A stretch of DNA of 64,000 nt, from the NCBI RefSeq assembly GCF_964204645.1, contig NC_134028.1, forward strand, positions 2,170,001 through 2,234,000. The letters are read 5' to 3'. Origin of the DNA: Tubulanus polymorphus (taxonomy: Eukaryota; Nemertea; Palaeonemertea; Tubulaniformes; Tubulanidae). Positions within the stretch are counted from its first letter, which is position 1. Every line of letters begins with the position of its first letter. Position numbers and translations under genes: made by a program. The notes beneath the pieces were generated by a model that made no database searches, was not told where the DNA came from, and saw nothing but the letters and a program-made list of their open reading frames with translations. Shown piece by piece: positions 1 through 50,182 of the stretch.

Positions 1-195
1 TAGACTATGAGAAATGCGTTCGCTTCTTGTTTAGTTCGTGATGAATAATGTGACATCAGAAAAGACCGATATCCAACAATTTCTTCCCATGTCATGAAAT
101 TAATTGTATCTGATTCATTACTAATAAAACATAATTACGCAAACAATGCAGAGTGTCTAAAATTCGTCCATGGTGCATTATATAGAGTTTACCCC
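1..195 (+). other. 3' UTR fragment of an upstream paralogue of the kringle/VWD gene family
   Basis: These bases align almost gaplessly with 19218-19409, the last non-coding exon downstream of gene B's stop codon. The window begins exactly at the TAG that corresponds to the acceptor of a 3' UTR intron in gene B. An AATAAA is present at 123-128, in the same place as the one at 19340-19345. The simplest reading is that a third member of the tandem array ends here and that its coding part lies outside the window. The short ORF at 94-276 is not supported as coding. Confidence 0.75.
123..128 (+). other. Poly(A) signal AATAAA of the upstream paralogue
   Basis: AATAAA sits in the context CTAATAAAACAT. 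The same context recurs after gene B (19340-19345) and after gene A (11569-11574), which supports a conserved cleavage and polyadenylation signal in the array. Confidence 0.6.
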
Positions 196-2366
196 CAATT
201 CATCGATAACGATTCATCCCTTCTCCGGAATTCGTGTTACTCGGAAGAATGTATTTATTTGTTCTGCAAGATCTGAGACACAATAAGAAAATTAGTAGTC
301 CTATATATGGAACCAGACCTAGAGGTAAACGCGGTACTAAGCTATAAGACAACTGCTTTTCATCACGGAACTGGTAGATGAACAGACTCCGATAAAGCAC
401 ATGGCTGTTTAATGCGGAATTGACAGCGAGCTAGTTGCAGAGACGATGGAATGCAAAATGATACGGATTCTACGCTGAGTTGCGGGTAAATTCTACACAA
501 AAACCGCAATAACAAAATTCTTAAACTTAACATAGTATCTGAATACGATAGCCGGAAAAGTTGGAGTCCCAGCAGTATTGTGGCTCAAGCCGACTTGCAA
601 TCATGTACAAATACGTGCTTCCCGATATATCAACGTTCTGTTATTGTGATTTGTTACTCGAGCCTCACCTCGACGTCTTTGGGTTAGGGGTAGAGCCTTC
701 GTACGTTCCTCCGTCCGTTCGGTCGTGCGTCTGTCACCTTTTTTTCCCACTAATTGCTATTAGTCCTACAGTTTTAATCAAATCAATTCCTAGTATGGTA
801 TGAATATTCTATGGACCGATACCTACAAAGAACACAGCCGATTTTGGATTATGACCACGAGGGGGAGCCCCTCTTCAAATCACACAGCGGAGCTATATTA
901 GCCGATATTAGCAATCGTAGCAATACTTTTCTAACATCGTTCCACAACAAAAATTAGACATTTTACAAGTCTTTTGCGGATGTCATACGTTTTTTTGCTA
1001 CAGTAGGCAGTACAGTATTGCGTTCCTGTATAGTCGGCATACAGACGGACAGCATACTGTTATACATACGATTAGCGATAGTTACTTCTAATTTCATTTG
1101 TTTCGAGAAAAATGAGAAATAGATCCGTTGATAAGAGTTGATGAATAGATTTAATATTTGAATATTTTTGAAATTGATATCAATAGTGGATATTCGTGTA
1201 TTGATTTATTGCTTCACTGAGGTGGTACTTGTCTTTTATCACTCGAAAATCTTCCGCTTGCCACACGTCACCAGCTCGAATCAATACGTTTATTGAATAC
1301 TATAGACATTTTCAACAAGCCCGATATTAAATTATATCCTCGTTTATAGCGGGATCGATAGATTTCACCGAAATGTTCGAGTATGTCCAACATGTATCGT
1401 ACGTTAAGTCGTGAAACGTGACGGTTACTGCTGAAAGTGAAAACTTTCAGAACTCATATACAACATTTCTTCTTATTCTTATTCAATTTTGATCTTAATC
1501 AAATTTATATATTTAATTCACTTTGTCTCATTCCAGTATTACGTGGTTTTTTTATTCAATTGATGAATCTTTTTGGGACATCGTTGAATGTGACTTTTCG
1601 TCATGAATTGAGGCAAACTATTAGTAAAAAATCACAAATCATGTAAATTATGTTATATAAATGTTTGACATAAGATAATAAAAAGTGCAATTCTTTATCT
1701 TATATCAACGGCATTCTGTTGATAGATTCGATGAAGTCCGGTCAATAAGATTTGCGTCGTACAATTACAGAAAACGATGCATTATTCTATGTATTACTAG
1801 AATGGAAATTAATCATGTTTCATATAATTCATCGAATATACTGATGTTACCGAAGTAGAAATGGTCGACAAGAGAGTGAAAACCTAAAGAATATCAGTAA
1901 CAAGTTACATTTCAACTTCTAACCACATTTTCTGGAATATGTGGCTGAAGGCCTATAAGTGTGAAAAATAAACTGGTTTCGGGAAATTCAAACTCCAAGA
2001 ACACGTGTCACAAAACATATGGAATACCAATTTATTTCATTTCGGAACTATTGTGATACCCCGAAGACTCTCCACAATTTGATATAACATGTGTATGATT
2101 AATCTGAATGGAATATATAGTAGCTTCGAAATTGGTAAAACTCATTATATTCTTTCACACGCGAGAATATTTTGAAAGTGACGGTAATTTTCATTATAAA
2201 AGAATTATCATATCTCCTAGTACTATTCATTCATTTTTGAAAATTTGCAGATTTCATGCTGGAAAGGTAGGGCGTGCAATATTCATTCCTGATTAAATGT
2301 ATCTTTTTCTTTATTTAGTCCTATCACTCAGCTATATATAGACTAGTGGTTTGTTTTTATTTACAG
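196..2366. other. Intergenic region / 5' flank of gene A, no coding gene seen
   Basis: This AT-rich stretch has no ORF with recognisable protein content. The base just before the gene A start codon is the end of a TTTATTTACAG, which looks like a splice acceptor, and gene B has a TTTACAG three bases before its ATG. A non-coding first exon may therefore lie in this stretch, but I cannot place it or a promoter with confidence. Confidence 0.4.
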
Positions 2367-5300
2367 ATGTCGAAATTCCTCTATTCCATCGTTTTTGCCT
2401 TTTGTTGCGTTCACCTGATTTCATCACAAAACCCAACAAGTAACGTATCTATCTACAGGGAGATGGGGAAGGAGAGTTAGGGTGGCAAGATAGAAAGACA
2501 TCTTATCAGATTTACATATATAGTAGTTTTCCTTCATGAAATAACAATGAAATTACTTTTATCAGCATGTAAGGACAGTCAAGAAGGCACAGAATACAAG
2601 GGCACACTGAGTACGACCTTCTCTGGGAGAACGTGTAACTTTTGGTCAAACCATCAGGACAGTTCCTATACATTCCCGGCGGGTGAAACTGCGACGAGTG
2701 CTAAAAACTACTGTCGTAATCCCGGAGCAGTTCGGGATACTAGGAATATAGATGGTCGTTACCTCTCACCTATGCGAGCAGGACCTTGGTGTTATACAAC
2801 TGATGCATATGTGTGGGATTACTGTGACGTGCCGGTATGCGGTGAACCTCCTCGAGATCCTGGTCAGTGAATTTGAATTTGATCACATACATACCCGGTA
2901 TTTTGGGGCAAACAATTGCACTAAATGGTACGATAATATATTTCGCAGGAGTTGACTGCTTTAAAGTTACGAAATCTACTATGAAGAAATACTATTATTC
3001 TTACAATGGTTCACGTAGTATCAGTAGACTTGACAATCAGTGTGTCTATGCCCCTAGAGTAGAAGGCTTTTTTCTTTCTGTCAGGTAAGGGAGCATCTCA
3101 ACATTTCAATAGTTGCGTCAATTAGAATAACTGTCTAATTGGTTTTAACCCCCCATTTGATTAGACACATGCCAAAGTTGGAACTATTGATTTTCTAATG
3201 AGAGACCTTAGACAAAGATAAGACATCTCACGAGGGTATTTCGATCACAATTTTTAATTGAAAAAATGAAATAGCAAAATTACAAGTGAAAAACCTATTA
3301 AACTCTAATAGACTTTATAAACAAAATAAAATGTATCGAAAATACCAACAGCAACTAAAAGAGAGACGGTTAAATCTACTGCTTGTAATATATATATTTG
3401 AAACTGCAATTCAATTCAATGTTATCTTTATTGCGACGCAATAAATCGATAGTTCGGCAGCAGTGATGAATCCGCGGGAGGCCTTAACCTCTCCCCCACC
3501 CTCTTCCGCGAGTTATTCTACTTGAAGTAACTATCGAAATTTTGAGATGCTCCCTAACTTTATCAATAGGTTGAATTCAATTTGATAATTTATTTCGGAT
3601 CCTGTATTGACAAATCTTATGTCTTTTAGGGATTTCATAGCAAAATATATCGAACGGAGTGACGCATGCTATGTTCATAAAGGCGCCACTAACAGACAGA
3701 TGGCATGCTACGTGTATCTCGGAGATAACGCAGATAAACCATTCAAACTTGAAGGATGCAAACCCCCTGTTAATTGTGGTGAGTTTGAATTCGTTCATCT
3801 TAGAAGAAATGTAGAAAAGTCGACTTACAACAAATATCTATATAATATATATGTTTAATCAAATATTTCAAGTTTGTCGCGTATTCAAAATGGTTGATCC
3901 AATCGTGGTGTGTGTTGTCATGGTTATAAGTAGAAAATTATCGTCTTCATTCTTAACATGCCTCGATGTTGGTTATTTTTCAGGCCTATACGTAGCACCA
4001 GCAACCCTTCCACCAGCACGTAAGATTCACTGATTTAACTATCAATATTCATGCAGATTTCACTATCACTATCAGCCAATATTTCACAAATTAAACTCGA
4101 TATTTCGACATTCAAATTGGGTTTAAACAGAGAAAAATACTTAGTTTAAGAGCTGCATTTCATTAACAGCATGCATTTCTGTTTCTTTCGTCAAAATTAG
4201 CCTGCCAACCCGCATGTTCCAGTCAACATGAATGCATCAATAACATTTGCCAGTGCAAGACAGGATTAGTAACCAGTGGAACGACGTGTTCATGTCCCTC
4301 GGTAAATCTTTACTGGGACACAACTACGTTAACTTGCCAGCGTAAGTGCGATTCAAAATTGCCATCTAAATCTCTTCCGAGAAAAATGATTAAGTTCAAC
4401 ATGATTTTTTATTGATGCAATGAACGTAAAAATGTTGAGAATATTTTGAATATAGCTGCGTGTCGAGGTCGTTGCAAACAAACGGAGATATGCGTTAATG
4501 GAGATACTTGTGAGTGTGTAACTGGATTCAATAGATCTCCAAGCGGAATCTGTGAACGTGAGTTCATACGAAGATACTTTTTCATATTCAACTGCATCGA
4601 AATGTGACCAAAACCTCTTAAATAACGCAATAAAATTCTTGTTGTTTTTCATTTTACAGCTCCTCCAAAAACATGTCAGAAAATATGTAAAGCGTATGGC
4701 GATCCACATTTCCTATCATTTGATGGTTTGAGTTTCAGTTTTCATGGCTCTTGCACATATATACTAGCAGAATACAATGAACCAGGATCGACCTGTCGGT
4801 TCAGAATCTCATTGAGAAGTGTTAGAGTTACACAGAGTGTTCCTGTTACCTTTTCAACCGTTCTCATGTTTGAATCGCTTACACCAGGACAAACATTTTC
4901 GACTCGATTTAACCGAGTCTCCAAAGAGCTTACGGTGAGCAATCTATCCGTTAAGATCATTATTATGAATGATCATAAGATAGTATTGAATTTATACTTG
5001 TTCGACAATAAGTTCTACTTGTAACCGTTTACCGTTATCTATTACTGTACATTTATATGTATGTTCTTGTTATTGGGTCCTTCGTATATATGCGATGATA
5101 TTAATACGCACAGATTTCCTTTCGTTCGATTTCAGATAAATAACGTTTTGTCCTCAAGTCCATATGTTGGATTACCCGGCGATTACCAGGTTGGTTACGA
5201 ATCGGGCGTGTTCTTTGTGAGAAGCGCTCAATGCAGTATTGATGTCACGTTTCAAACATATACAGTGACCATACAGCTCGGAAAAACAACTACCAATACC

Positions 5301-8300
5301 TACGCAGGTATATTTCCACAATTAGCAACGAGTGCTTTTTCATACTATAAAGTAATATATCAAGATAACTCAAAACCTACTTAGAAGAAATGCTGAGTCG
5401 TGAAATGTTAAAGATTCTCCATGAGTTGATTTTCCATAATGAAGTTGATTTTCTGAAAACAACAGGTAATCTGATTGGTCTATGCGGTAACTGTGACGGA
5501 GATAAAACTAACGACCTCGATAATTGTTCGCAAGGCACGAGGAGGATCGGTTCTATAGGAAGAACGACATTACGGGATTCCTGTTTAGCGAGCGATGCAG
5601 AATTAGCATATAGGCCCAGGTATTGTGAAATATACATATGCAAAAACGCAATTGTAAGGTGCACATGCATAATCATTTGCTGTAATGCTGCCTTCATGTT
5701 TACTTTAGTTGCGTCAAATCGCCACCTCCAGTTACCTGCGAAACAAGTGTCCTCGATGCATTCGGATCGGACGAACAAAAATGTGGTTTACTAATGTAAG
5801 TTTTTCAAATCAGACGTAATTTGTATATTCACTGCACATATTCTGAAATTGTTATACAATGATTTTATTGTAGGCCCACAACAACAGGCCCATTTGCCGA
5901 GTGCTTAGCTAGTGGCGTGGTGGACGTTGCGCCATTTTTCGAATCATGTAAAAAGGACGCGTGTTACACACAAGCAGATATAAACGAACAACAAGAAATA
6001 ATTTGCGCGAGTCTTAGCACATTTGAGGTGAAATGTAGAGAAGCTGGGTTTACAACTGATGTTTGGAGATCAGCAACTTTCTGTCGTTAGTATCCATCAT
6101 GAATGTACATGTATTATGATTAATGTAAAAATGCATGATGTTTTGTCCTTCAACTAACATGATATATAGATAATCTATTTCCCTACAACCAACTTAAATT
6201 CTTTTTCAATATTTGTTATTTCTGTTACAGCACCGCCTGTATGCCCACAAAATTCACATTACAACCACAGTGCTGTTACCCCTCGACCAACATGCACACA
6301 ACCGTTCCAATACCATGCAGCAAACGCCGTCAAACTACCATTGTGTATTTGCGACGATGGGTACATGCTTTCTGGACAAATATGCGTTCTCAAATCAAAA
6401 TGCGGTACAAATTCGTTTCGATTTTACATTTCATGGTTTATCGCTTTGTTTATAACTATTTGCAGCATTATTTACTATCACTCTTTGATCACCAGATGTA
6501 TGTGTTCAGTCTCAGTGTAAAAATGGTGGAATTTGTGAACCACAGGACAGTGGTTACAGATGTATCTGTCTAAAAGACTTTACAGGAGATTACTGTGAAA
6601 ACGGTAAGGTTATCAGTCAGATTCTATCGGTCGCAATAGTTTTACATATTGCACACTTATGTTTTTTCATTTCAACTTCATTCTCTAGTTCGAGACCAAA
6701 ACATTGTATCATTGAACTTATATCATCCAATATTTTCTTAATATTTTGATGGGCAGCCTTTTCAAGACATACTAGTGTATTTTCGAATTGATGACAAAAT
6801 AACAAAGAAAAGTCTAACCATGATACGTTTTTCACAGGTCCTGGTAATTTGTGTGATCCAAATCCATGCAATGGTGGGGTGTGCCAGATTGATCCATATG
6901 GTGAAGTAGTTTGCCTATGTCCAGAGTCCCTTACTGGAGATAGATGTACAATGCCAGTACCTGTTGGTAAGTATTGAAATACACGTTTAGAATAACTAAG
7001 AAAGAAAGTCATTATACCTGTTCCATTCTATTTCTAGATCCCTGTTCGTCAAACCCATGTGAAAATGGTCTGTGTCAAATTCTGATGGTAAATGGCGTTC
7101 CGAATAATTACACTTGCAGCTGTGATCCGGATTATACCGGTAACCACTGTCAATGTGGCCCTAATACACCGTACGACATCAGCACCAATGCGTGCAGTAA
7201 GCAACCTTTATATCATTCCAGCTTATCAGAGGTGCTTCAGTGCAAGATAATACGAAACAAAAATGTTAAGAAGAGAAGAATAAATAATCAAATTTGCGTA
7301 ACTTACACATTTTAGACTTATGTTTTCCAAACCCATGTGGTACCAATGGACAATGCGTTCAATCTGGAGCAGGTTACACTTGTAACTGTAATGCTGGTTT
7401 TACCGGTAATCGATGTCAATGCAGCCCCAGTGAAACTTACGTTGCGAACAATGACACATGTGTCAGTAAGTATACCGGTATCTAATCAAATTATAGAAAC
7501 TTCCCATCCAAACATATTTTCCTATGCACAAGGGATTGCGTGTCATTGCGAAACAGATTGCGGTTGATTTTCATTTGGAAGATTCATCATAAATGCCTGA
7601 CACCGTTTATTTTACCTTTTAGGTGATCCATATATTCTCATTATTTGATTGATGTAATCCAATTTCAGTTACTGGATGCCAACCCGCATGCTCGGATCGT
7701 CAAAGCTGCATCAATAACATTTGTCAGTGCAAAACAGGATTAGTAACCAGTGGAACGACGTGTTCATGTCCCTCGGTAAACCTTTACTGGGACACAACTA
7801 CGTTAACTTGCCAGCGTAAGTGCAACAAACTCATAATGTCCATCTGCTTGAAACTTTACCATATTCACCGCAAACAATATCTATTGGTTGAATATCAGAA
7901 TAATTTCATATTGCTTCAATTATATCTACACATATAAAGCTGCGTGTCAAGGTCGTTGCAAAGATAGGGAGATATGCGTCAATGGAGATACTTGTGAGTG
8001 TGTAACTGGATTCAATAGATCTCCAAGCGGAATCTGTGAACGTGAGTTCATTCGAAGATACCGATTCAAATTCAACTGCATCGAAATGTCACATAAACCT
8101 CTTAAATAACGCGATAAGATTCTTGTTGTTTTTCATTTAACAGCTCCTACAACAACATGTCAGAAAATATGTAAAGCGTATGGCGATCCACATTTCCTAT
8201 CATTCGATGGGTTGAGTTACAATTTTCATGGCCTTTGCACATATACACTAGCAGAATACAATGAACCAGCATCAACCTGTCGGTTCAGAATCTCATTGAG

Positions 8301-11256
8301 AAGTGTTAGATTGAGACCGAGTGTTCCTGTTACCTTTTCAACCGTTCTCATGTTTGAATCGCTTACACCAGGACAAACATTTTCGACACGATTTAACCGA
8401 GTCTCCAAAGAGCTTACGGTGAGCGTTAAAATCATAACTATTCACGAACACAAGATAGTATTAGATTTATACTGTTTCAACAATCATTTCTACTTGTAAC
8501 CGTTCACTGTTCTTGTTTAAAAAATGTATCTAAGTCCTTGGCATATCGATATTCACGTATGGGATGATATTAATACGAACAGGGTTTTTTTTCATTTGAT
8601 TTCAGATAAATAACGTTTTGTCCTCAAGTCCATATGTTGGATTACCCGGTGATTACCAGGTTGGTTACGAATTGGGAAGGTTTTTTGTGAGAAGCGATCA
8701 ATGCAGTATTGATGTCACATTTGAAGAATATACGGTGACCATAAAGCTCGGAAAAACAACTACCAATACCTACGCAGGTATAATTCCACAATTAGCTACA
8801 ATGGCCTTACAAACTATAAAGTAATATATCCAGATAACATTAAAAATGATTTAAAAGAAATGAGAAAAAAGTCTCCATGAGATGATGAAATCTATCATTT
8901 GAAAACATCAGGCAATCTGATTGGTCTATGCGGCAACTGTAACGGAGATAAAACCGATGATCTCGATAACTGCACGAATGGCACGAGTAGAATCGATGCT
9001 GTAGGAAGACCGACAGTACAGGAAACATTACATCACTGTTTAGTGAACGATACAGAATTATCATACAGACCCAGGTATAATGAAAGATAAGTATACTAAA
9101 ATTCAGTTGTCATTTGCATGTTGAATGTTTTTCTTTAATCCTACCTTAATATGTATTTCAGTTGCGACAAACCGCCACCTTCAGTTACTTGCGAAACAAG
9201 TGTCCTCGATGCATTCGGATCGGACGAACAAAAATGTGGTTTGCTGACGTAAGTTTTAAAAATCAGACGTAATTTGTATACTGCACACATCTTAAAATGG
9301 TTTTACAATAATCTTATTCTAGGTCCACACCAGGCCCATTCACCGAGTGCATAGCTAGTGGCGTGGTGGACGTTACGCCTTTTTTTGAATCATGTATAGC
9401 CGACGCGTGTTACACACAAGCAGATATAAACGAACAACAAGAAATAATTTGCGCGAGTCTAAGCACATTTGAGGTGAAATGTAGAGAAGCTGGGTTTACA
9501 ACTGATGTTTGGAGATCAGCAACTTTCTGTCGTTAGTATCCAACATAAATGTACATGTGTTATGATTAATTTAAAAATACATGCGTTAAGATTGTTCGTC
9601 CTTCTACAACTAACATGATAGATAGATAATCTTATTTCTCTAGGACCAACTTTTTCAATATTTGTTATTTCTGTTACAGCACCGCCTGTATGCCCACAAA
9701 ATTCACATTACAACCACAGTGCTGTTACCCCTCGACCAACATGCACACAACCGTTCCAATACCATGCAGCAAACGCCGTCAAATTACCATTGTGTATTTG
9801 CGACGATGGGTACATGCTTTCTGGACAAATATGTGTTCTCAAATCAAAATGCGGTATAAATTCGTTTCGATTTTACATTTCATGGTTTATCGATTTGTTA
9901 ATTACTATTTGCAGCATTATTTACTATCACTCTTTGATCACCAGATGTATGTGTTCAGTCTCAGTGTAAAAATGGTGGAATTTGTGAACCACAGGACAGT
10001 GGTTACAGATGTATCTGTCTAAAAGACTTTACAGGAGATTACTGTGAAAACGGTAAGGTTATCAGTCTGATTGTATCAGTCGCAATAGTTTTACATATTA
10101 CACACTTATGTTTTTTCATTTCAACTTCATTCTCTAGTTCGAGACCAAAACATTGTATCATTGAACTTATATCATCCAATATTTTCTTAATATTTTGATG
10201 GGCAGCCTTTTCAAGACATACTAGTGTATTTTCGAATTGATGACAAAATAACAAAGGAAAGTCTAACCATGATACATTTTTCACAGGTCCTGGTAATTTA
10301 TGTGATCCTAACCCATGCAATGGTGGGGTGTGCCAGATTGATCCATATGGTGAAGTAGTTTGCCTATGTCCAGAGTCCCTTACTGGAGATAGATGTACAA
10401 TGCCAGTACCTGTTGGTAAGTATTGAAATACACTTTTTGAATAACTAAGAAAGTCATTATACCTGTTCCATTCTATTTTCTAGATCCCTGTTCGTCAAAC
10501 CCATGTAAAAATGGTCTGTGTCAAATCCTGCTGGTAAATGGCGTTCCGAATAATTACACTTGCAGCTGCGATCCGGATTATACCGGTAATCAATGTCAAT
10601 GTGGCCCTAATGAAAATTACGACGCAAACACTCAAGCATGCAAATTAGGCGAGTCATATTCTGACAGACAAATACGCATATTGTAATACATAAGCGAAAT
10701 TAGAAATATTCTCCTGACCTCATTAATTTCTTACAGTTTGTAATGGCTGCACAGATCGTCAAGTGCTCGATGCTAGTGGAATCTGTCAATGTGTATCAGG
10801 AACAACATGGAACGGATCGCAGTGCGCGTGTGATTCCAATCGCCTCTGGGACACCGTAACGAAACAGTGCATTGGTAAAATATTCTTATCTTCTGACATT
10901 GTTCAGACTTTTATTTGCACAGATTCAAAGGTTAAATAATATGAAAAGAAATAGACTTTGTTAACATATATACTTAACTCATAATTTATTTGACATTTTA
11001 GGAATTGGGTCTTTGACAGGTAATTTCTTTCTTTTTCTAAATACAGTACTCAATTTCACTCACGTCAAGACCTATGACGGATCGTGTTGTATCTGATATC
11101 ATTCAGAAATCATCTAAATTATTTATATATTCATTGATTCTAGGAACGTGTGGAATGCATGGTAATAATCCATGCTCCCCGGGTGAATGCGTTCCCGATG
11201 GGGGGAAATATTACTGCGTTTGTCCCAATGGGCACACTGTTACTGGATGTCAGTAA
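2367..11256 (+). CDS. Secreted kringle - VWD/C8/TIL/EGF modular protein, two VWD units (gene A)
   Basis: Exons: 2367-2439, 2566-2862, 2949-3084, 3630-3778, 3984-4019, 4201-4341, 4456-4557, 4660-4934, 5136-5307, 5466-5619, 5709-5795, 5874-6085, 6231-6404, 6496-6603, 6838-6966, 7038-7196, 7316-7465, 7669-7815, 7940-8041, 8144-8418, 8606-8777, 8912-9074, 9162-9248, 9323-9531, 9680-9853, 9945-10052, 10287-10415, 10484-10648, 10737-10874, 11002-11019, 11144-11256. The total is 4554 nt (1517 aa). Order: signal peptide (1-20, ending LISSQ); kringle (26-117, with GPWCYTTD and YCDVPVC); divergent six-Cys kringle (125-218); Pro/Ala linker; two EGF-like (231-311); VWD (about 315-511, with YGDPHFLSFDG and GLCGNCDGD); C8 (to 611); TIL (612-669); four EGF (to 851); then a second EGF2-VWD-C8-TIL-EGF3 unit (852-1428) and Cys-rich tail modules. 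Most junctions are phase 1. Intron 28 has a GC donor. Likely extracellular; a structural, mucus or adhesive role is inferred only from the domains. Confidence 0.85.
4201..7465 (+). repeat. Gene A internal duplication, unit 1 (exons 6-17)
   Basis: This block (EGF-EGF-VWD-C8-TIL-EGF4) is repeated at 7669-10648. Exon sizes match one for one: 275, 172, 87, 174, 108 and 129 nt recur identically. The block starts and ends in phase 1, so it can be duplicated without a frameshift. The intron at 6604-6837 and its counterpart 10053-10286 have equal length (234 bp) and differ at only a few positions. Confidence 0.9.
7669..10648 (+). repeat. Gene A internal duplication, unit 2 (exons 18-28)
   Basis: This is the second copy of the 4201-7465 block. 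It has one fewer EGF exon. Its last exon (10484-10648) begins like exon 16 but ends with a YDAN...AC tail like the final EGF exon of gene B (18372-18527), which points to recombination between EGF exons. The C8 exon lacks one codon relative to unit 1 (209 versus 212 nt). Confidence 0.85.
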
Positions 11257-11568
11257 GACTCCAACTATCATCGATATGTCTACAAGGTGAGTCTGCTACT
11301 TTATGTGATTATAGATGACAAACACTTGCATGCAACTTGTTTTGTTTTAAAGATTAATTTCCGAAAGAAAACTTTATTGCATCGAAGTTAATTTAAACGT
11401 TGTGCGAAATATACGTGGTATATTGTTTTCATCCTAGTGCTAAGACTGGAGAAGCGTCCTCGTATGTTTTGTTGGTGATAATGATTTGCGACCGACTGAA
11501 GAGACTAAAATCAGGAATTGTGTCCGTGTTCGAAATGTGTTGATATTTACAATGTAATTGTTATGACT

Positions 11569-11574
11569 AATAAA
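11569..11574 (+). other. Poly(A) signal AATAAA of gene A
   Basis: AATAAA in the context CTAATAAAACAT, about 310 bases after the stop codon. The context is shared with 123-128 and 19340-19345. Confidence 0.5.
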
Positions 11575-13282
11575 ACATTAACCGCTCACCCATAATAAAG
11601 TAGTTTGTGTCGATTGTGGGAAAAATTAGAACATATTGTTAATCACAGCTTGTTAATTGGATTATGTTATTGCAGAATTATAAACACATGAACTCCAACT
11701 TCTCCAAACATCAGCTGCACGTTTGAAAGGACTCACAAATTCGATCATATCATTTCCAGTTTTTTGGACTTTCACAGGTTAACCGTTTCTGCAAGAATCC
11801 AGATTCTCAATAAAATACTGCATGTAATTAAGTATTTTACTATCTTTCTGAGTGAAACATGTATAACTTAATAGGCAAACCAGTGATAGAAGAAAAGTCT
11901 TAGATAAGGACTTGAATGTACGAATAGATAAAATAGAATTCATTTACAATAAACGACTACTCGAACATGCAATATCAATTGTATTCTACTTGAATGAATT
12001 CAATCATCACATCTCGTCAATTTTCCTTTCAACAAGTTACAATTGTATTAAACTTTCTCTCTTCGTCGAAGGTTCATTGAGTGTTCAATAAAAATGAAAC
12101 AAGAATCAATACGTACTCATGGAATACAACGGATTCTACTTGATACAATTTCGAGGTCGCGTACACACATTTCGAATATCAAGATAGTGTTATGAAATGA
12201 TGTATATTTGATTATGGGGGCAACATAATGATGTGTTTGTTTATTATATTATTACTATGTATTCATAATAAATATCTGTCTGACAGTTCACAGTTTCTAC
12301 ATCTGTCCTGGTATGTCTGATACCAAGGGTAAAAATATAGGGGTGAGTTTAGTTTAAAACAAGATTTGTTTTGAAAGTCATCGGTGACGAAGTTAGGCTC
12401 GACAGTCGGGCTCGGAGCTCCTTCAACTTCGAGAAATCTATGGGCCGAATAATGAGTCGGTGCTCGACGAATCGGATCAATAAATACAGATCGTCAATCA
12501 ATCATGGAGGCACTATTTACTATATTCTGGATATTTGGGTGAAGTTATCGGAACGACGGATCGGACGTATAAGAGAGCGAAGCCGACCTACCTGCTCTTC
12601 TCTTTCAATTGCTCTATTTCAATTACTTTCAATTGAGCATCATATCTAAAAAAATGAATTACGAAAGAAACGTAAAGGGGAGCTATGCACTAAATGTGCT
12701 TAAGGCTGAGTAATTAGTAGGCTACTCGATTAGCTATATATAGCGATATTAATACGAAGATTTATTATATGATATTACATCCTATCACCGACACTACTAT
12801 AACGTAAGGACATTCAAAACCAGCCCAGTAATCGTTTTGCATTCAACAAAACGGAGGATTGGATTAACCCCTTCATTAATTGTTAAAACAACAGCAAAAA
12901 CCTTCATTTACACAACTATCCAGCCAAAGAGGAGTGAGAATTCTACTTGAACGATTTGGCTCTTTGAAGGTAATTTCGCAATCGATGGCTCTTCATGCGT
13001 TTATAATAGAAGTAATAATATAGAATTGATAATATCATATTAATGGTGAAATTGAAATTTCAAAACTCTCCAGACATAATATTATTATTAATATGACAGG
13101 TGTTAAACTAAAACCACATTGAATATTATATATAAACAGGCTTTGAGAAGTGTAAAATCGTTTCATTTAACGTAAATGAATTTGAAAAGTAAGTTCAAAC
13201 AATCATCATTTCTCACGTTCGATTTAATCATTCGTATTGGAAATGATAACGGCGGTAGTATTAAATTTTCACTCTAACCTTC

Positions 13283-13416
13283 CTGGGCCAGTTGCTCAAA
13301 AGTTGGTTAAAGCTAACCAGCAGATAAATGCCGTAGTAAAAATGAACATAATTGTCACAATGTCAACTATACACTGGTTAACTTTGACTAACTTTTGAGC
13401 AACTGCAGGGGCCCTG
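13283..13416. mobile_element. MITE-like fold-back element with about 32-bp terminal inverted repeats
   Basis: The left arm contains CAGTTGCTCAAAAGTT followed by GGTTAAAGCTAACCAG. The right arm is its near-perfect reverse complement (CTGGTTAACTTTGACTAAC, then TTTTGAGCAACTG). GGGCC-rich words flank both ends. There is no coding capacity and the whole unit is about 135 bp, which fits a non-autonomous DNA transposon. I could not define target-site duplications. Confidence 0.65.
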
Positions 13417-13663
13417 GTGAAGAGACATGTATGACTCTGCCGTGCCAGTATAGAGCAGAAATCATAGAACGGTGGTTTTTTAGAAGGAAACCTTACTTTG
13501 TTGATGAACTGAATGCAAAAAATACAAGTAGATTTAAGTGCACTATATATGTATCTAGTAAACTCAGCTATACGGCTAACAAACTATCTTATTTTATAGA
13601 ATACTCACCAATAGAACTAATATTACTCATGAAACCGAAAGTTACACACTTTTCTTTACAGAA

Positions 13664-16600
13664 ATGATGTGGAAATTCCTTTGTTCTGTTGTTTTTGCCT
13701 TTTGCTGTGTTGAACTGATTTCATCACAAAACCCAACAAGTAACGTATCTATCTACAGGGAGATGGGGAACGGGAGTTAGGGTGGCAAGATAGAAAAGAA
13801 TCTTATCAAATTAAAACACATAGTAGTTTTCCGAAATGAGATAACAATTAAATTACTTTTGTCAGCATGTAAGAACACTCAAGAAGGCACAGAATACAAG
13901 GGTACACTGAGTACGACCTTCTCTGGGAGAACTTGTGACTCATGGTCAAACCGTCCCGGTTCTTACTCGTTCCCAGCGGGTGAAACTGCGACGAGTGCTC
14001 AAAACTACTGTCGTAATCCCGGAGCAGTTCAGGATACTAGGAATAAAGATGGTCGTTACCTCTCACCTATGCGAGCAGGACCTTGGTGTTATACAACTGA
14101 TGCATATGTGTGGGATTACTGTGACGTGCCGGTATGCGGTGAACCTCCTCGAGATCCTGGTCAGTGAATTTGAATTTGATCACATACATACCCGGTATTT
14201 TGGGGCAAACAATTGCACTAAATGGTATGATTATATATTTTGCAGGAGTTGACTGTTTTAAAGTTACGAGATCTATGAATAAGTACTATTTTTCTTACAA
14301 TGGTTCACGTAGTATGAGTAGACTTGACAATCGGTGTGTCTATGCCCCTAGAGTAGAAGGCCATTTTCTCAATGTCAGGTAACTTTATCAATAGGTTGAT
14401 TTAAATTTGATAATTTGTTTCTGATCCTGTACTGAAAAATCTAATGTCTTTTAGGAATTCCATAGCAAAATATATCAAAAGGAGTGACGTATGCTATGTT
14501 TATAATGGCGCCACTCACAGGCAATTGGGATGCTACGTGTATCTCGGAGATAACGCAAATAAACCATTCAGACTTGAAGGATGCAAATCCCCTGTTAATT
14601 GTGGTGAGTTTGAATTTAGAATAAACGTAGAAAAGATATATTGCGTATTCAAAATGGTTGATCCAATCGTTGTTGTGTTGTCATGGTTATAAGTAGAAAA
14701 TTAGCGTCTTCATTCTTTACATGCATCGATGTTGGTTATTTTTCAGCCCAATACGTAGCACCAGCAACCCCTCCACCAGCACGTAAGATTCACTGATTTA
14801 ACTATCAATATTCATATAGATTTCACTATCACTATCAGCCAATATTTCACATGCATTTATGTTTCTTTCGTCAAAATTAGCCTGCCAACCCGCATGTTCC
14901 AGTCAACATGAATGCATCAATAACATTTGCCAGTGCAAGACAGGATTAGTAACCAGTGGAACGACGTGTTCATGTCCCTCGGTAAATCTTTACTGGGACA
15001 CAACTACGTTAACTTGCCAGCGTAAGTGCAATTCAAAATTGCCATCTAAATCTCTTCCGAGAAAAATGATGATCTTCATCATGATTTTTTATTGATGCAA
15101 TGAGCGTAAAAATGTTGCGAATATTCTTAATATAGCTGCGTGTCAAGGTCGTTGCAAAGATAGGGAGATATGCGTGAATGGAAATACTTGTGAGTGTGTA
15201 ACTGGATTCAATAGATCTCCAAGCGGAATTTGTGAACGTGAGTTCATTCGAAGATACCGGTTCAAATTTAACTGCATCGAAATGTCACATAAACCTCTTA
15301 AATAAGAAATGTGACCAAAATCCTCTTAAATAATGCGATAAGATTCTTGATGTTTTTCATTTTACAGCTCCTCCTACAACATGTCAGAAAATATGTAGAG
15401 CGTATGGCGATCCACATTTCCTATCATTTGATGGGTTGAGTTACGATTTTCATGGCCTTTGCACGTATATACTAGCAGAATACAATGAACCAGCATCAAC
15501 CTGTCGGTTCAGAATCTCATTGAGAAGTGTTAGAGTTACACAGAGTGTTCCTGTTACCTTTTCAACCGTTCTCATGTTTGAATCGCTTACACCAGGACAA
15601 ACATTTTCGACTCGATTCAACCGAATTTCTAAACAATTAATGGTAAATCTCGTTTAATTGGATGGCTTAATGAAGATATCTACTAGAAATTAATTGATTT
15701 AGTTATTAATGAACTGTTGAATGTTATTACTGAGAGGAGGTAAATGTATAAAGACTATATTTGATTATGTACGAATGTATGTAGAGATATTGCTTTTTGC
15801 AAAATCGATAGCACATGTGATTTCGGATTCGACACATATTTTCACTCATTTTCAGATCAATAATAAATTGTCTTCAAGTCCATATGTTGGATTACCCGGT
15901 GATTACCAGGTTGGTTGTGAATTGGGAATGTTTTTTGTGAGAAGCGCTCAATGCAGTATTGATGTCACATTTAGAGATTTTACGGTGATCATACAGCTCG
16001 GAAAAGCAACTATAAATACCTACGCAGGTATTACATTTATTTCAAACGAATGTTCCTTACTCTTTATTCTAGACACTAGAAAATCTTTCCACAATTTTGA
16101 CTATATTTCATTTTGAATCTTTCCAAGTGAATGGAACTTTAATTCGTTCGATGAAACTGTCATTTAAAGTAACATGTCAGTTGGATAATGGAAAGTAATC
16201 AATCCGTACACAGGTAATCTGATTGGTCTATGCGGTAACTGTGATGGAGATAAAACTAACGACCTCGATAATTGTTCACAAGGCACGATGACGATCGGTT
16301 CTATAGGAAGAACGACATTAAGGAATTCCTGTTTAGCGAGCGATGCAGAATTATCATTAAGGCCAAGGTATTGTGAACGAGTGATTATCATGAAAATGAT
16401 GGCACATTAAAGCACTCCATATAAATCTATAGATAAGTAATCTTTATATTCCAACTATATTCCAATATTCCAACTCATACCTTAGTTGCGTCAACCCGAC
16501 ACCTCCAGTTACCTGCGAAAAAAGTATTCTTGATGCATTGGGATCGGACAAAGAAAAATGCGCTCTGTTAAAGTAAGTTTTAACCAAATATATTATGCAT

Positions 16601-19130
16601 GTTCTACATATTATCACTTGATAAATTGATTTGAAAATATTTTCATCATTTTAGGTCCTCACCGGGCCCATTCGCCCAGTGTTTGGCTAGTGGCGTGGTG
16701 GACGTTTCGCCTTTTTTTGAATCATGTAAAAAGGACGCGTGTTACACACGAGCAGATATAAACAAACAAAAAGAAATAATTTGCGCGAGTCTTAGCACAT
16801 TTGAGGTGAAATGTAGAGAAGCTGGGTTTACAACTGATGTTTGGAGATCAGCAACTTTCTGTCGTTAGTATCCAACATAAATGTACATGTATTATGATTT
16901 ATGTAAAAATACATGCGATAAGACAACAAACATGATAGATAGATAATCTATTTCTCTACAACCAACTTTAATTCTTTTTAAATATTTGTAATTTCTGTTG
17001 CAGCGACACCTGAATGCCCACAAAATTCACATTACAACCACAGTGCTGTTACCCCTCGACCAACATGCACACAACCGTTCCAATACCATGCAGCAAACGC
17101 CGTCAAATTACCATTGTGTATTTGCGACGATGGGTACATGCTTTCTGGACAAATATGTGTTCTCAAATCAAAATGCGGTATAAATTCGTTTCCATTTTAC
17201 ATTTCATGGTTTATCGATTTGTTAATTACTATTTGCAGCATTATTTACTATCACTCTTTGATCACCAGATGTATGTGTTCAGTCTCAGTGTAAAAATGGT
17301 GGAATTTGTGAACCACAGAACAGTGGTTACAGATGTATCTGTCAAAAGGACTTTACAGGAGATTACTGTGAAAACGGTTAAGTTATCAGTCAGATTGTAT
17401 TATTAGTGCAATTAGTTCACATAGGCGAAACGTGGTTTATAATTTTTATTTTAGATTTCCTTTCTAATGAAATATGGTAAAGATTTTGTGTTCTTTATGA
17501 GCTGTTTTCAATTTCTAAGAAAAGGGAAAATGGAACGATGATACGTTTTTTCACAGGTCCTGGTAATTTGTGTGATCCAAATCCATGCAATGGTGGGGTG
17601 TGCCAGATTGATCCATATGGTGAAGTAGTTTGCCAATGTCCAGAATCCCTTACTGGTGAACGATGTACAACTCCAGTACCTGTTGGTAAATAGTGAAATA
17701 CCACTTGCCCACTTTTAGAATAACTAAGAAAGTCATTATACAGGTTTTATTCTATTCTTTAGATCCCTGTTCGCCAAACCCATGTAAAAATGGTCTGTGC
17801 CAAATTCTGCTGGTAAATGGCGTTCCGAACACATACACTTGCAGCTGTGATCCGGATTATACTGGGGATCAATGTCAATGCGGCCCTAACACACCTTACG
17901 ACGCTAACTCTGGTGAATGTGTCAGTAAGTATACCAGTATCTGAATGATTATAATTGAAAACCTGTATTTTACTTAGTAACAAGTTAGCTGCGCTTATTA
18001 GCCATTGTTTATTACAGATTGCTGTTCTTCAATTTCTTTCAGAAGATCTAATTATAAAATGCCTGACACCGTTGGTTTGATATTTTAGGTAATCCATGCT
18101 CGGCAAACCCATGTGGTACCAATGGACAATGTGTTCAATCTGCAGCAGGTCACACTTGTAACTGTAATGCGGGTTTTACCGGTGATCAATGTCAATGTGG
18201 CCCTAACACACCTTACGACGCTAACTCTGGTACATGTGTCAGTAAGTATACCGATATCTGAACAAAATGATTGATAAGAAAAATCAATTAACACAAAAGC
18301 CACAACATCATGGCTGTTAATTTTACTAAGATTTATTATGAAATGTCTGAAATCATTTGTTTTTACTTTAGGTAATCCATGCTCGGCTAACCCATGTGGT
18401 TCCAATGGACAATGTGTTCAATCTGCAGCAGGTTACACTTGTAACTGTAATGCGGATTTTACCGGTGATCAATGTCAATGCGGCCCTAATACACCTTACG
18501 ACGCGAACACTCGCGCATGCAAATCAGGTGAATCATTTTCTGACTGACAAATATGCATATCATAAAACATTTGCAAAATTAGAAATATTCTCCTGACCTC
18601 ATTAAATTCTTACAGTTTGTAATAGCTGCACAGATCGTCAAGTGCTCGATGCTAGTGGAATCTGTCAATGTGTATCAGGAACAACATGGAACGGATCGCA
18701 GTGCGTCTGTGATTCCAATCGCCTCTGGGACCCCGTAACGAAAAAATGCTTTGGTAAAATTTTTACATACATTCGAAATGATTCTTGGCAACATTTTAAG
18801 CTCTACCAAAGCCGTGATGCCTTCTAATTAGCTATGCCTATCGGAACTTTAAATGATACTGTTAATCATTGGCTATTACTCATTAAGATATTTCTTCTTT
18901 TTAGCGCATGTTGCTAGTGCAGGTAATTCTTACGATTTACCATTTCAAAATTATGATTTGGTCGAAACAATCTAATAAATGCAAATTGTTTTCATTGTGA
19001 AATATCAATCCTTTCAGGATGGTGCAGGCTATTCGTTACGAATCCATGTAGCCCAGGATTATGCGTTCCCAATGGTCGAGGATATTACTGCATTTGTCCC
19101 AATGGGCACACAATTTCTGGATGCCGCTAG
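13664..19130 (+). CDS. Secreted kringle - VWD/C8/TIL/EGF modular protein, single VWD unit (gene B)
   Basis: Exons: 13664-13739, 13866-14159, 14246-14378, 14455-14603, 14747-14782, 14881-15021, 15136-15237, 15368-15642, 15856-16027, 16214-16367, 16486-16572, 16655-16863, 17004-17177, 17269-17376, 17557-17685, 17763-17924, 18089-18241, 18372-18527, 18616-18753, 18905-18922, 19018-19130. The total is 2979 nt (992 aa). Order: signal peptide (1-21); kringle (27-117); divergent kringle (to 217); PATPPPA linker; two EGF-like; VWD (about 314-510, YGDPHFLSFDG); C8 (to 609); TIL (to 667); five EGF (to 903, the last two nearly identical); a Cys-rich module; a 6-residue microexon; and a terminal EGF-like module ending in CR. 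It is a tandem paralogue of gene A about 11.3 kb downstream, on the same strand. ATG is doubled at the start (13664 and 13667); I chose the first. Confidence 0.85.
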
Positions 19131-19409
19131 AACCCGACCATCGAATGGTGAGGTTTACAGGTTTAATCATCTGTTTCGTAATATTTTGGATTTTTACTTA
19201 TGCGTCTCATTTCTTTCTAGACTGTGAGAAATGCGTTCGCTTCTTGTTTTGTTTGTGATGAATAATGTAGCACCAGAAAAGACTGATATCCAACAATTTC
19301 TTCTCATGTCATGAAATTAATTGTATTTGATTCATAACTAATAAAACATATTTACGCAAACAATGCAGTGTCTAAAATTCATCTATGGTGCATTTGATCC
19401 TAGAGTTTC
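19131..19409 (+). other. Gene B 3' UTR with a probable intron
   Basis: After the TAG stop at 19128-19130, a candidate donor (ATG|GTGAGG, intron starting at about 19148) and an acceptor (TTCTTTCTAG ending at 19220) bracket a short 3' UTR intron. The following exon matches window bases 4-195. AATAAA lies at 19340-19345. A stop codon more than 50 nt upstream of an exon junction could expose the transcript to nonsense-mediated decay; here the distance is only about 17 nt. Confidence 0.5.
19340..19345 (+). other. Poly(A) signal AATAAA of gene B
   Basis: AATAAA in the same CTAATAAAACAT context as in the other array members. Confidence 0.6.
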
Positions 19410-45600: not shown

Positions 45601-48600
45601 GTCCTTGGTAACAGACTATTAGTTAAACAACGTTGGGGAATAGCCTCTACTTGTGTTTTATCACTGTGATTTGAATACCAGCTGAGTTTTTCTCATCACC
45701 TTGGTTTATTGATTGTGGTTTTTTGTGTGAATGGAACGTGCAGTTTATTTTTCATACCCACCTAGCCTTAGGCCTTATAATATTAGTGCCATTAAACCAG
45801 AAAAACCACACAATTTAGCCCAGATCAGGTCCCGGGTCAAATTTAGCCCATGCCTAATCAGCGATAGAGTTCACATGTTAATGCTTCAACAAAGGGGCCA
45901 ACATTAACATTACGATCACAGGGAATTAAATGACCCATGTTAGAATTAGGCATGGGCCTTGTCCCGGTTTGGTCAGGCCAGATTTGGTCCATGTAATGTG
46001 GGCATTATGGGCATTTCGAACCAGTATGAACAGCTTATCTAGCATCTGGTAAAAACATTCGTGTGATCAATGCTATTGTCATGCTCCAGAAAATGAATGA
46101 GTTGTTGATAAGGGAATTTCTGACATTTTTCGTCACACCAAAACATGCTCAGGAACAGATTGAGGAGGTCACGAGACAATTTCAATATTTCACCTCATAC
46201 AAATAGGACGCACAGTCTGCATAAACTGAATGGGTTTTTTGCGTGCTTCTCCTGTTGTTTCAGTTCGACTGTTATTTCATTAGAACACGACGAGTCTGAA
46301 ATAGATGATATACGGTCATATGTCTGATACCGATAATCGATATCCTTGTATCAAAAACGAGTTGCAGAGACCATTAGCGGGCAATATGAAATATGATGAT
46401 ATTGGAAGTAAACATAATTGGTTGTTTGATATGTGCCGGCAAAAAACTGCAGACATTACTGAAATGATCTAGTTTTTGATTGTAGTAGTTAATGGTATGT
46501 TTTGCGATATGTTTTAAGTGTTTTACCAGTCATGATTTGTATGTGATGGTGAGGTTTATATACATACGTGTTGTATATACGATAAGCTACAGTAGCTATG
46601 AGTCACTAGATGTGTCCAGCATCCACTCGCGCGAGAATTCATTCCCCGGAAGGTCACCATGGATTCGAATGACTGATGAGTTGATGACTTCATTGTTGTG
46701 CCGGGCTGCGACTTTTGTACTTTTGTACTCAATGATCCGTTCAAGAGAAGAGTAAACCCGTGTGAAATTCAAGTTAAACTGGATACATCCGGTTTTCAGA
46801 CCGACACCATCTCCCTTCAAATGAGCTATCACATGATGCATAAACGAAAGCCTCCTGTTTCCTACCTATTTGCTTTTATTTATGTTCAACTCCATCTCTG
46901 AGTGCAGCTTTTTCATCCTCGCCCTTTCTTTCACCATTCTCATCTCTGAGTGCAGCTTTTTCATCCTCGCCCTTTCTTTCACCATTCTCATCTCTGAGTG
47001 CAGCTTTTTCATCCTCGCCCTTTCTTTCACCATTCTCATCTCTGAGTGCAGCTTTTTCATCCTCGCCCTTTCTTTCACCATTCTCATCACTGAGTGCAGC
47101 TTTTTCATCCTCGCCCTTTCACCATTCTCATCTCTGAGTGCAGCTTTTTCATCCTCGCCCTTTCTTTCACCATTCTCATCTCTGAGTGCAGCTTTTTCAT
47201 CCTCGCCCTTTCTTTCACCATTCTCATCTCTGAGTGCAGCTTTTTCATCCTCGCCCTTTCACCATTCTCATCTCTGAGTGCAGCTTTTTCATCCTCGCCC
47301 TTTCACCATTCTCATCTCTGAGTGCAGCTTTTTCATCCTCGCCCTTTCACCATTCTCATCTCTGAGTGCAGCTTTTTCATCCTCGCCCTTTCTTTCACCA
47401 TTCTCATCTCTGAGTGCAGCTTTTTCATCCTCGCCCTTTCTTTCACCATTCTCATCTCTGAGTGCAGCTTTTTCATCCTCGCCCTTTCACCATTCTCATC
47501 TCTGAGTGCAGCTTTTTCATCCTCGCCCTTTCACCATTCTCATCTCTGAGTGCAGCTTTTTCATCCTCGCCCTTTCACCATTCTCATCTCTGAGTGTAGC
47601 TTTTTCATCCTCGCCCTTTCACCATTCTCATCTCTGAGTGCAGCTTTTTCATCCTCGCCCTTTCTTTCACCATTCTCATCTCTGAGTGCAGCTTTTTCAT
47701 CCTCGCCCTTTCTTTCACCATTCTCATCTCTGAGTGCAGCTTTTTCATCCTCGCCCTTTCTTTCACCATTCTCATCTCTGAGTGCAGCTTCTTTGATAAT
47801 AGCAACCTTTGAAATTGTATGTACCCCGGCAATCATTCTGTGGCTCAATTTATATTACTTTCATGTTTGAAATTGTCTTCTTCCTTCGACTCATGTTGTC
47901 GATGATTTACCTGATTGTTTCTCACACCACAATGATATGGTCCATGAAAACATTTCATACTTTCATGTTACGAAGGGAAGTTTCCGTGTAAATGAAGGTC
48001 TAATCCTCAGAGCTCGTTTCGAAGCAGCTTAATATTCTAGATGTTGCTCCGGTGTATTTGGAAACTGATTGAAATAAACAGGTTTTTTTTCTAAACGAGT
48101 TAGCTGGTAACGAATGGGAATTGATCGAAGTCTTATCTCGGAAAAAAAGTTTGAAATTACGAGCTTAAAAAGCGTTGACTCGGATTAAACAATAGCAGAC
48201 GCACTTCGTGCGTACATCACCACGACTACGATTTATGAGACACTCGGCTCTGTAATAAACGGCACGTTGGTATTGCGTTGAATTAATGTGACGTGAGTGA
48301 GATTCGTAGTTGACTCGATTCTCATACTGATCACCTCCCCACGGTGGCTGTGACAGTGATTTATTGGGTGCAAAGGGTTAATTCAGGAGCGCGAAGTGTA
48401 CATGATGTGGATGACATAATTACCGTATAGCCAAAAAACAGTCGCAGAGCGGAGAGATAGGAGAGGTCGGGTGAACATCCTCTGGAGCGGAGAGATGGGA
48501 GAGGTCGGGTGTACATCCTCTGGAGTGGAGAGATGGGAGAGGTTGGGTGAACATCCTCTGGAGTGGAGAGATGGGAGAGGTTGGGTGAACATCCTCTGGA

Positions 48601-50182
48601 GTGGAGAGATATGAGAGGTCTGGTGTACATCCTCTGGAGTGGAGAGATGGGAGAGGTCTGGTGAACATCCTCTGGAGTGGAGATATATGAGAGGTCGGGT
48701 GTACATCCTCTGGAGTGGAGATATATGAGAGGTCGGGTGTACATCCTCTGGAGCGGAGAGATAGGAGAGGTCGGGTGTACATCCTCTTGAGTGGAGATAT
48801 ATGAGAGGTCGGGTGAACATCCTCTGGAGTGGAGATATATGAGAGGTCGGGTGTACATCCTCTGGAGCGGAGAGATAGGAGAGGTCGGGTGTACATCCTC
48901 TTGAGTGGAGATATATGAGAGGTCGGGTGTACATCCTCTGGAGTGGAGATATATGAGAGGTCGGGTGTACATCCTCTGGAGCGGAGAGATAGGAGAGGTC
49001 GGGTGTACATCCTCTGGAGCGGAGAGATGGGAGAGGTCTGGTGAACATCCTCTGGAGTGGAGAGATGGGAGAGGTCTGGTGTACATCCTCTTGAGTGGAG
49101 ATATATGAGAGGTCGGGTGTACATCCTCTGGAGTGGAGATATATGAGAGGTCGGGTGTACATCCTCTGGAGCGGAGAGATAGGAGAGGTCGGGTGTACAT
49201 CCTCTTGAGTGGAGATATATGAGAGGTCGGGTGTACATCCTCTGGAGTGGAGATATATGAGAGGTCGGGTGTACATCCTCTTGAGTGGAGATATATGAGA
49301 GGTCGGGTGTACATCCTCTGAAGTGGAGAGATATGAGAGGTCTGGTGTACATCCTCTGGAGCAGAGAGATATGAGAGGTCGGGTGAACATCCTCTGGAGT
49401 GGAGAGATATGAGAGGTCTGGTGTACATCCTCTGGAGTGGAGATATATGAGAGGTCGGGTGAACATCCTCTGGAGTGGAGAGATGGGAGAGGTCTGGTGT
49501 ACATCCTCTTGAGTGGAGATATATGAGAGGTCGGGTGTACCAAGTGCTGGTTGAAATGTGTCAAGCATGCATTTATTTTATGTCTGGTTGATGGTCAAAC
49601 AAATAGCTGCGGACAAAGAAGAGGAATATAAGCAGGGTAAAAAACCAGGGGTGAGACGTATTGACAAACTCGCCCAGTCTGTGCCCCACTTTACAGAATA
49701 ACATAAAACACATATGGCAATTTTTAACAGAATCATTTTAGCAGCATGAGAATTGTTACTAGTTGTGGGTTTGATCGTGACTGACAGCAACATGGATGCA
49801 GCATCGTATGTCGAATTCATCGGTGAATTCATCGGTGAATTCTCCGATGATTGGCTATGTAGATGTCGTAGTTGACCAGAATCTATGACGACAATAAAGC
49901 TGTCACAGTATCCGCACGGTATCCACACGGTATCCGCACGGTATCCACACTGTATCCACATGCCTACAGCGCAAAAACCATTGATTACATTCTAGGGATT
50001 CTATAATATTCGTATCACACGATTGTGAGTGTTTACGATCTGATTAGCCAAACAAGCTTCCAGCTTTCACCGCAGAATTTTTATCACGAATGGATATTAC
50101 TGCAGCACGCGTGGAAAAGTAGCGAATTCTTATGCACAGTCTTTGGTGCATACAGAGCTCATCTTTAAAAACAAAAGCCATT

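Follow-up and report, generated by a model that had tools for sequence, protein, structure and literature searches.

Kringle and VWD-C8-TIL-EGF domains combined in a tandem gene array of the ribbon worm Tubulanus polymorphus

The gene array and its domain content

A tandem array of genes, in which a kringle is followed by VWD-C8-TIL-EGF units in a single predicted secreted protein, lies on contig NC_134028.1 (here C4) of Tubulanus polymorphus. The array was examined in a window of 64,000 nucleotides (C4:2170001-2234000) and in the sequence upstream of it, and the genome searched comprised 267.8 Mb in 77 contigs, of which C7 and C9 (likewise contig labels) are also referred to below. The array consists of at least four intact genes, U1, U2, A, and B. 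Gene A (window 2367-11256; 31 exons, 1,517 amino acids) and gene B (window 13664-19130; 21 exons, 992 amino acids) are both on the plus strand and were modelled exon by exon; their reading is open throughout, with no internal stops and consistent phases, and their introns are GT-AG, the single exception being one GC-AG intron in A. The two complete head-to-tail genes reported in a preliminary description, made from the sequence alone, are thus confirmed, and the tandem array proposed there proves larger. A tblastn search with B against C4:2130001-2170000 plus the window revealed two more genes upstream, U1 (C4:2152712-2159373; 22 exons, 1,042 amino acids) and U2 (C4:2163445-2169912; 23 exons, 1,100 amino acids); the same search found no further copies in the 22.7 kb preceding U1 or in the window past 19500. 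The third gene whose 3' end had been placed in the window is real and corresponds to U2; however, its stop codon at C4:2169912 precedes the window start by 88 nt, and only its 3' untranslated region (UTR) is present there. AATAAA motifs at window positions 123, 11569 (plus 11594 and 11809), and 19340 fit with a separate transcript for each gene. No Rfam family matched in the window. In the genome, a single let-7 match with all 22 bases of the mature sequence scored 51.1 bits, 2.4 bits under the Rfam gathering score of 53.5, and suggests a bilaterian; a search for COX1 found no match.

In B, a signal peptide, a kringle, a kringle-like domain (hereafter domain X), and cysteine-rich exons precede a single VWD-C8-TIL-EGFn block, and in A the same head is followed by two such blocks. 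Cysteine content is 10.0-10.7% in all four proteins, each of which starts with a hydrophobic N-terminus; signal peptides were called from hydropathy. The Pfam kringle cut-off (34.3 bits) is passed in all four genes, with 50.6 bits in U1 and 48.5 bits in U2, for which the scans covered the kringle exon alone or with the signal peptide (for A and B, see Table 1). The kringle of B was unlisted in the whole-protein scan and was recovered with the exon alone and in the genome search. Genome-wide, the kringle model gave at least 125 exon matches, among them the four of the array and two on C7. VWD, C8, and EGF exceed their Pfam thresholds in B and in each of the two units of A, and TIL follows C8 in full-profile register, yet at scores under its cut-off of 24.5 bits. 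The GDPH and CGNC motifs are present in all five array VWD units (two in A and one each in B, U1, and U2). When A and B were scanned with Pfam, no protease, VWA, F5/8C, or lectin domain was detected, and no hydrophobic segment was found beyond the signal peptide (the 19-residue Kyte-Doolittle maximum elsewhere is 1.20-1.35). By Pfam and hydropathy, A and B are predicted to be secreted, cysteine-rich proteins with no catalytic domain. The VWD-C8-TIL-EGF units, the domain order, and the absence of a protease or transmembrane segment agree with the preliminary description; of the kringles that it had named, one per gene is of Pfam grade, while the second is only kringle-like and has no Pfam match in A.

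Table 1. Features of genes A and B and of the U2 3' end in the window
Feature	Position in window	Strand	Evidence
A exon 1, signal peptide	2367..2439	+	hydrophobic N-terminus by hydropathy
A exon 2, kringle with long loop insert before GPWC	2566..2862	+	Pfam PF00051, 51.4 bits; genome match C4:2172580, 45.7 bits
A exons 3-4 (2949-3084, 3630-3778), degenerate kringle-like six-cysteine domain X	2949..3778	+	weak profile match to kringles
A exons 5-7, Pro/Ala linker and two Cys-rich exons	3984..4557	+	gene model
A VWD unit 1 (exons 8-10), GDPH at residue 325, CGNC at 467	4660..5619	+	Pfam PF00094, 66.2 bits
A C8 unit 1 (exons 11-12)	5709..6085	+	Pfam PF08742, 52.1 bits
A TIL unit 1 (exon 13)	6231..6404	+	20.4 bits, below 24.5 cut-off
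A EGF exons 14-17	6496..7465	+	Pfam EGF, four stretches
A exons 18-19, Cys-rich head of unit 2	7669..8041	+	exon 18 and its flanking introns nearest U1/U2
A unit 2 VWD-C8-TIL (exons 20-25), GDPH at residue 948	8144..9853	+	Pfam VWD 63.3, C8 52.4, TIL 20.3 bits (below cut-off)
A exons 26-31: EGF exons, Cys-rich exon, C-terminal EGF-like exon, stop	9945..11256	+	EGF in three stretches
B exon 1, signal peptide	13664..13739	+	76 nt identical to U1 and U2
B exon 2, kringle	13866..14159	+	Pfam 49.1 bits (exon alone), 42.2 bits (genome search)
B exons 3-4, degenerate kringle-like domain X	14246..14603	+	gene model and profile comparison
B exons 5-7, linker and Cys-rich exons	14747..15237	+	gene model
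B VWD (exons 8-10), GDPH at residue 324	15368..16367	+	Pfam 61.4 bits
B C8 (exons 11-12)	16486..16863	+	Pfam 50.8 bits
B TIL (exon 13)	17004..17177	+	19.6 bits, below 24.5 cut-off
B exons 14-21: EGF exons, Cys-rich exon, C-terminal EGF-like exon, stop	17269..19130	+	EGF in six stretches
U2 3' UTR and flank, AATAAA at 123, right end approximate	1..280	+	stop codon 88 nt before window

Domain X and a second locus on C7

Domain X comprises 95 residues encoded by exons 3 and 4, with six cysteines in a kringle-like order. A search of the genome with X and its linker matched only the array, with eight fragments distributed over the four genes; one more copy, in an unlinked gene on C7, came to light in a local search. 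Pfam gave no match for the copies of A and C7, and the only PDB match, a fiber protein at E 0.8, was taken as chance. The domain was then compared with 14 kringles of this genome, four of which belong to A, B, and the C7 gene. An alignment of five X copies gave a weak collinear match to these kringles (hhalign score 22.7, P 0.0012, probability 20%). Of 150 column shuffles with the cysteines held fixed, none reached the observed score, either for the five copies or, in a further 150, for the C7 copy by itself. Aligning X locally with its own gene's kringle was uninformative. The assignment of X as an ordinary kringle was rejected, there being no Pfam-level match; X is retained as kringle-like because none of the cysteine-fixed shuffles equalled its score.

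The gene at C7:553971-561440 has a related organisation. It encodes, in order, a signal peptide, a kringle, X, a Pro/Thr-rich stretch, a second kringle, another Pro/Thr-rich stretch, and an EGF domain, followed by a cysteine-rich domain, EGF, VWD, C8, TIL, an EGF-like exon, EGF, and a C-terminal domain, and the phases of the model are consistent. Pfam recognises both kringles, VWD, C8, TIL (here 32.1 bits, above the cut-off), and EGF before and after VWD-C8-TIL, with no match for X, the cysteine-rich domain, or the C-terminal domain. The C-terminal exon (C7:560953-561440) accounts for approx. 160 residues of this unmatched sequence. The VWD-C8-TIL of C7 is 35% identical to unit 1 of A and 37% identical to that of U1. 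Moreover, the long kringle loop insert is common to the C7 and array kringles, and the score of X of A aligned to X of C7 was reached by 0 of 2,000 cysteine-fixed shuffles. The Pro/Thr-rich stretches occur in the C7 gene only and have no counterpart in the array genes. Since the C7 gene keeps the same order at this scaffold identity, the combination of kringle and VWD-C8-TIL-EGF probably predates the array and does not look like a chance joining of genes.

This bears on the possibility that neighbouring genes were wrongly joined, either because kringle genes and VWD genes alternate or because a second promoter lies ahead of the VWD part. The array architecture is predicted from exon-level models, and a scan for signal-peptide-like starts, based on a crude hydropathy filter, detected overlapping starts in A at 3851 and 3890 (window 3851-4019), in frame into exon 5, and two starts between the kringles of the C7 gene. 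However, the scan found none between the kringle and VWD exons of B, U1, and U2, nor between the last kringle and the VWD exon of the C7 gene, and the same order recurs with consistent phases in four array genes and in the unlinked, divergent C7 gene. We therefore regard wrongly joined genes as very improbable.

Kringle and VWD exons also lie close together elsewhere in the genome. On the minus strand of C9 (C9:16321513-16332578; loci L021-L022), VWD exons, a TIL exon, a three-kringle exon, and a second TIL exon occur within 11 kb and possibly form another kringle and VWD gene of a different order. Kringle and VWD exons at C7:2581k and C7:2599k were taken as separate genes because an 802-codon open frame with antistasin-like cysteine repeats (C7:2585355-2587760, minus strand; L024) and a cluster of tandem cysteine-rich, metallothionein-like exons (C7:2596369-2598679; L025) lie between them, both labels having been given by eye. 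The segment C4:25815001-25825000 contains one partial kringle match and no VWD. Ten VWD matches of 87.5-92.3 bits are scattered across 1 Mb at C4:19.93-20.93 Mb, and a kringle cluster lies close by, at 19.66-19.68 Mb.

Mosaic structure and proposed function

Introns 1-15 of the array genes fall into two types, A-type and U-type. The introns of U1 and U2 are 0.88-0.99 identical to each other, except introns 3, 4, and 5 (0.78, 0.52, and 0.86, respectively). In B, introns 1-6 are A-type (identity 0.82-0.97 to A and 0.47-0.58 to U1), as is intron 13 (0.95 to A versus 0.51 to U). The 5' flank of B is U-type (0.71 to U versus 0.41 to A), and so are exon 1 (76/76 nt identical to U1/U2), introns 8-10 (0.87-0.92 to U1 and 0.48-0.52 to A), intron 14 (0.91 versus 0.57 to A), and the last exon with the following 300 nt (0.89 versus 0.49 to A). 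Intron 11 is slightly nearer U (0.72 versus 0.64), and introns 7, 12, and 15 do not discriminate. By its introns, B is a mosaic, mostly U-type with the A-type kringle cassette. The second unit of A also starts U-type (introns 5-6 are 0.78-0.89 identical to U1/U2 and 0.45-0.56 to unit 1 of A); further on, introns 8-11, 13, 14, and 15 are A-type, and intron 12 is nearer U (0.95 versus 0.88). Intron 3 of A measures 545 bp, versus 76-81 bp in B, U1, and U2; at window approx. 3087-3557 it contains an insertion resembling a miniature inverted-repeat transposable element, with terminal inverted repeats (GGGAGCATCTCAA...), as judged by eye.

The exons diverge very unequally. Synonymous divergence (dS) of X between the two types is saturated, being 1.8 or more in three pairs and undefined in the fourth, and amino acid identity of X between A/B and U1/U2 is 41-45%, versus 78-96% for the kringle, cysteine-rich, VWD, C8, TIL, and EGF exons. 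The kringle is intermediate (dS 0.27-0.44 between types). Between unit 1 of A and U1/U2, the cysteine-rich, VWD, C8, TIL, and EGF exons have dS of 0.08-0.26, and several of the introns flanking them are near random identity. The ratio of nonsynonymous to synonymous divergence (dN/dS) is below 1 in every pair in which it is defined and is highest in X (0.89 for A-B; within-type values 0.77-0.89); no ratio is defined for the signal peptides of B-U1, B-U2, and U1-U2, which are identical, or, owing to saturated dS, for X of B-U2. These ratios do not support the idea that positive selection drove the heads apart. In our reading, the scaffold may be under exon-limited gene conversion, with the head cassette having moved as a block. 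With similar exons between near-random introns, beside a saturated domain, the array is well suited to the study of gene conversion in secreted-protein genes.

We propose, with confidence that is evenly balanced, that the array encodes a secreted, disulfide-rich mucus or adhesive scaffold with an exchangeable N-terminal binding head. A lineage-specific mucus, matrix, clotting-like, or adhesive system had been suggested as possible in the preliminary description, and by analogy a mucus or adhesive function is plausible. VWD-C8-TIL and the EGF domains would form the conserved part, a scaffold that, by analogy with FCGBP, mucins, flatworm ap1, and sea star Sfp1, would be self-cleaved at GDPH and, held together by disulfides, would build mucus or adhesive as multimers or fibres. 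The kringle and X would act as a ligand-binding head, standing where ap1 has a C-type lectin. Recombination of neighbouring genes would have placed the same head cassette on different scaffolds, X diverging freely and the scaffold exons staying alike. More tentatively, the kringle and X pair may have been recruited as an interchangeable head, so that the array would serve as a swap-shop in which recombination moves heads and gene conversion keeps scaffold exons alike. If this is true, the animal would have several matrix proteins that share a single body but differ in specificity.

A number of observations weigh against this proposal. VWD-C8-TIL is also found in clotting and other proteins, so that it does not fix the function, and the array proteins have no counterpart to the large repetitive region seen in certain glue proteins. 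TIL does not reach its Pfam threshold in any of the three scanned array units, and A contains the possible in-frame internal starts described above. As for the head, X can be assigned to the kringle fold only weakly: when the C7 copy is left out, the four array copies match 17 columns of the kringles (hhalign P 0.014, probability 3%). In addition, the lysine site of plasminogen kringles, with its anionic DxD centre and cationic R71 (R/K71 in lysine-binding kringles), appears to be missing from the A kringle in the alignment to them, in which the loop insert makes the register uncertain. With these residues apparently lacking and the loop longer, the array kringle seems unlikely to take a C-terminal lysine as its ligand in the classical way, and another ligand seems likely.

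The scaffold and the rapid divergence of its head also enter into other explanations. In one, the proteins would belong to mucosal or hemolymph recognition, as FCGBP-like secreted defence scaffolds whose kringle heads bind microbes or foreign material and whose head exchange tracks a changing target. FCGBP is the closest relative of the scaffold in the PDB (among the best 60 of 88 matches), X is the fastest diverging part, and heads have been exchanged between scaffolds; however, there is no excess of amino acid over synonymous change within types, and four array genes plus one unlinked gene do not amount to a large receptor family. Such a role is a minority possibility in our view. A reproductive matrix protein (egg coat, zonadhesin-like sperm-binding protein, or egg-mass jelly), with a head diverging under reproductive change, would likewise account for one rapidly diverging N-terminal domain, and zonadhesin has VWD-C8-TIL; as the scaffold is nearest to FCGBP and mucins among the same solved structures, we consider this improbable. 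Only marginally better placed is a protein that clots the body fluid or plugs wounds, comparable to hemolectin or VWF, with kringles that target fibrin-like or matrix ligands. VWD, TIL, and C8 are common to VWF and fly hemolectin, and kringles are typical of clotting factors (PMC9643190, in excerpt). In contrast, protease, VWA, and F5/8C domains were not found by Pfam in A and B, and the long EGF runs, in our judgement, better suit glue or matrix proteins.

Three further features of the window lie outside the array. A 38 bp minisatellite at 48447-49540 leaves three minus-strand frames open for 385-403 codons, and in a 48 bp minisatellite at 46893-47790 several frames are open for about 97-146 codons. 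An open frame at 53462-53767 has a weak Tweety match (16.3 bits versus a cut-off of 31.8).

Comparison with known systems

In a PDB search with residues 1-667 of B, FCGBP was the top match (8rde, 4.7e-111, six stretches), followed by plasminogen for the kringle and then by MUC5AC and MUC2 for the VWD unit, among the best 60 of 88 matches. The VWD-C8-TIL scaffold is common to FCGBP (8rde, 8r0t) and the array, and GDPH can be seen where the two are aligned. The array kringles resemble those of plasminogen and HGF by Pfam and PDB sequence match; they differ in a loop insert of approx. 10 or more residues between NP and GPWC and in the lack of a protease. Unlike the array proteins, FCGBP has neither a kringle nor an EGF run, and the human protein contains 12-13 VWD assemblies, versus one or two in the array genes. 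Many GDPH-bearing VWD domains are hydrolysed between Asp and Pro (PMC10880436, in excerpt).

The architecture had been described at the outset as unfamiliar, and a protein joining a kringle to VWD-C8-TIL was not found in searches of open-licence papers (animal protein databases lie outside that search). In the available parts of PMC9229212 and PMC7333891, kringle and vWD belong to different proteins; those of PMC6626399 and PMC9643190 contain no kringle and VWD combination, and the main text of PMC12549020 contains no kringle.

Individual elements of the array recur in adhesive systems, which are compared here from excerpts of the cited papers. Sea star Sfp1 and Sfp2 share vWD-C8-TIL, there in adhesive secretions (PMC9382459, PMC8621496); Sfp1 undergoes autocatalytic self-cleavage (PMC8621496), and neither paper mentions kringles. 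The authors of PMC8621496 reason that vWD-C8-TIL itself is not the part that adsorbs to surfaces in nature. Limpet P-vulgata_2, from an adhesive secretion, combines vWFD with eleven EGF domains as the array does; unlike the array, it has Kazal and TSP1 domains, and the limpet kringle resides in P-vulgata_14, which is listed without vWFD (PMC7333891). Kringles are also found in the flatworm anchor-cell protein Tmed-krg1, a component of an adhesive system; however, this protein has six kringles, is predicted to be membrane-bound, and has no VWD listed, whereas the array kringle is carried on a secreted scaffold (PMC9229212). A membrane kringle protein of a polyclad flatworm has been proposed to bind lysine-rich glue, and its knock-down leads to a non-adhesive phenotype (PMC9229212).

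Flatworm ap1 has the order C-type lectin - (EGF) - vWD - C8 - TIL - EGFs (PMC9229212, PMC8621496, in excerpt). Tmed-ap1 and Mlig-ap1, compared by description only, share with the array proteins a signal peptide, a binding domain ahead of vWD-C8-TIL, and many EGF domains after it; they differ in that the head is a C-type lectin and in that Tmed-ap1 adds vWC and Mlig-ap1 Lys/Arg-rich regions. Several animals build underwater glues and mucus on VWD-C8-TIL and EGF scaffolds, and the target-binding part may vary by lineage. A kringle head in the position of the ap1 lectin would represent a second solution and a test of head swapping.

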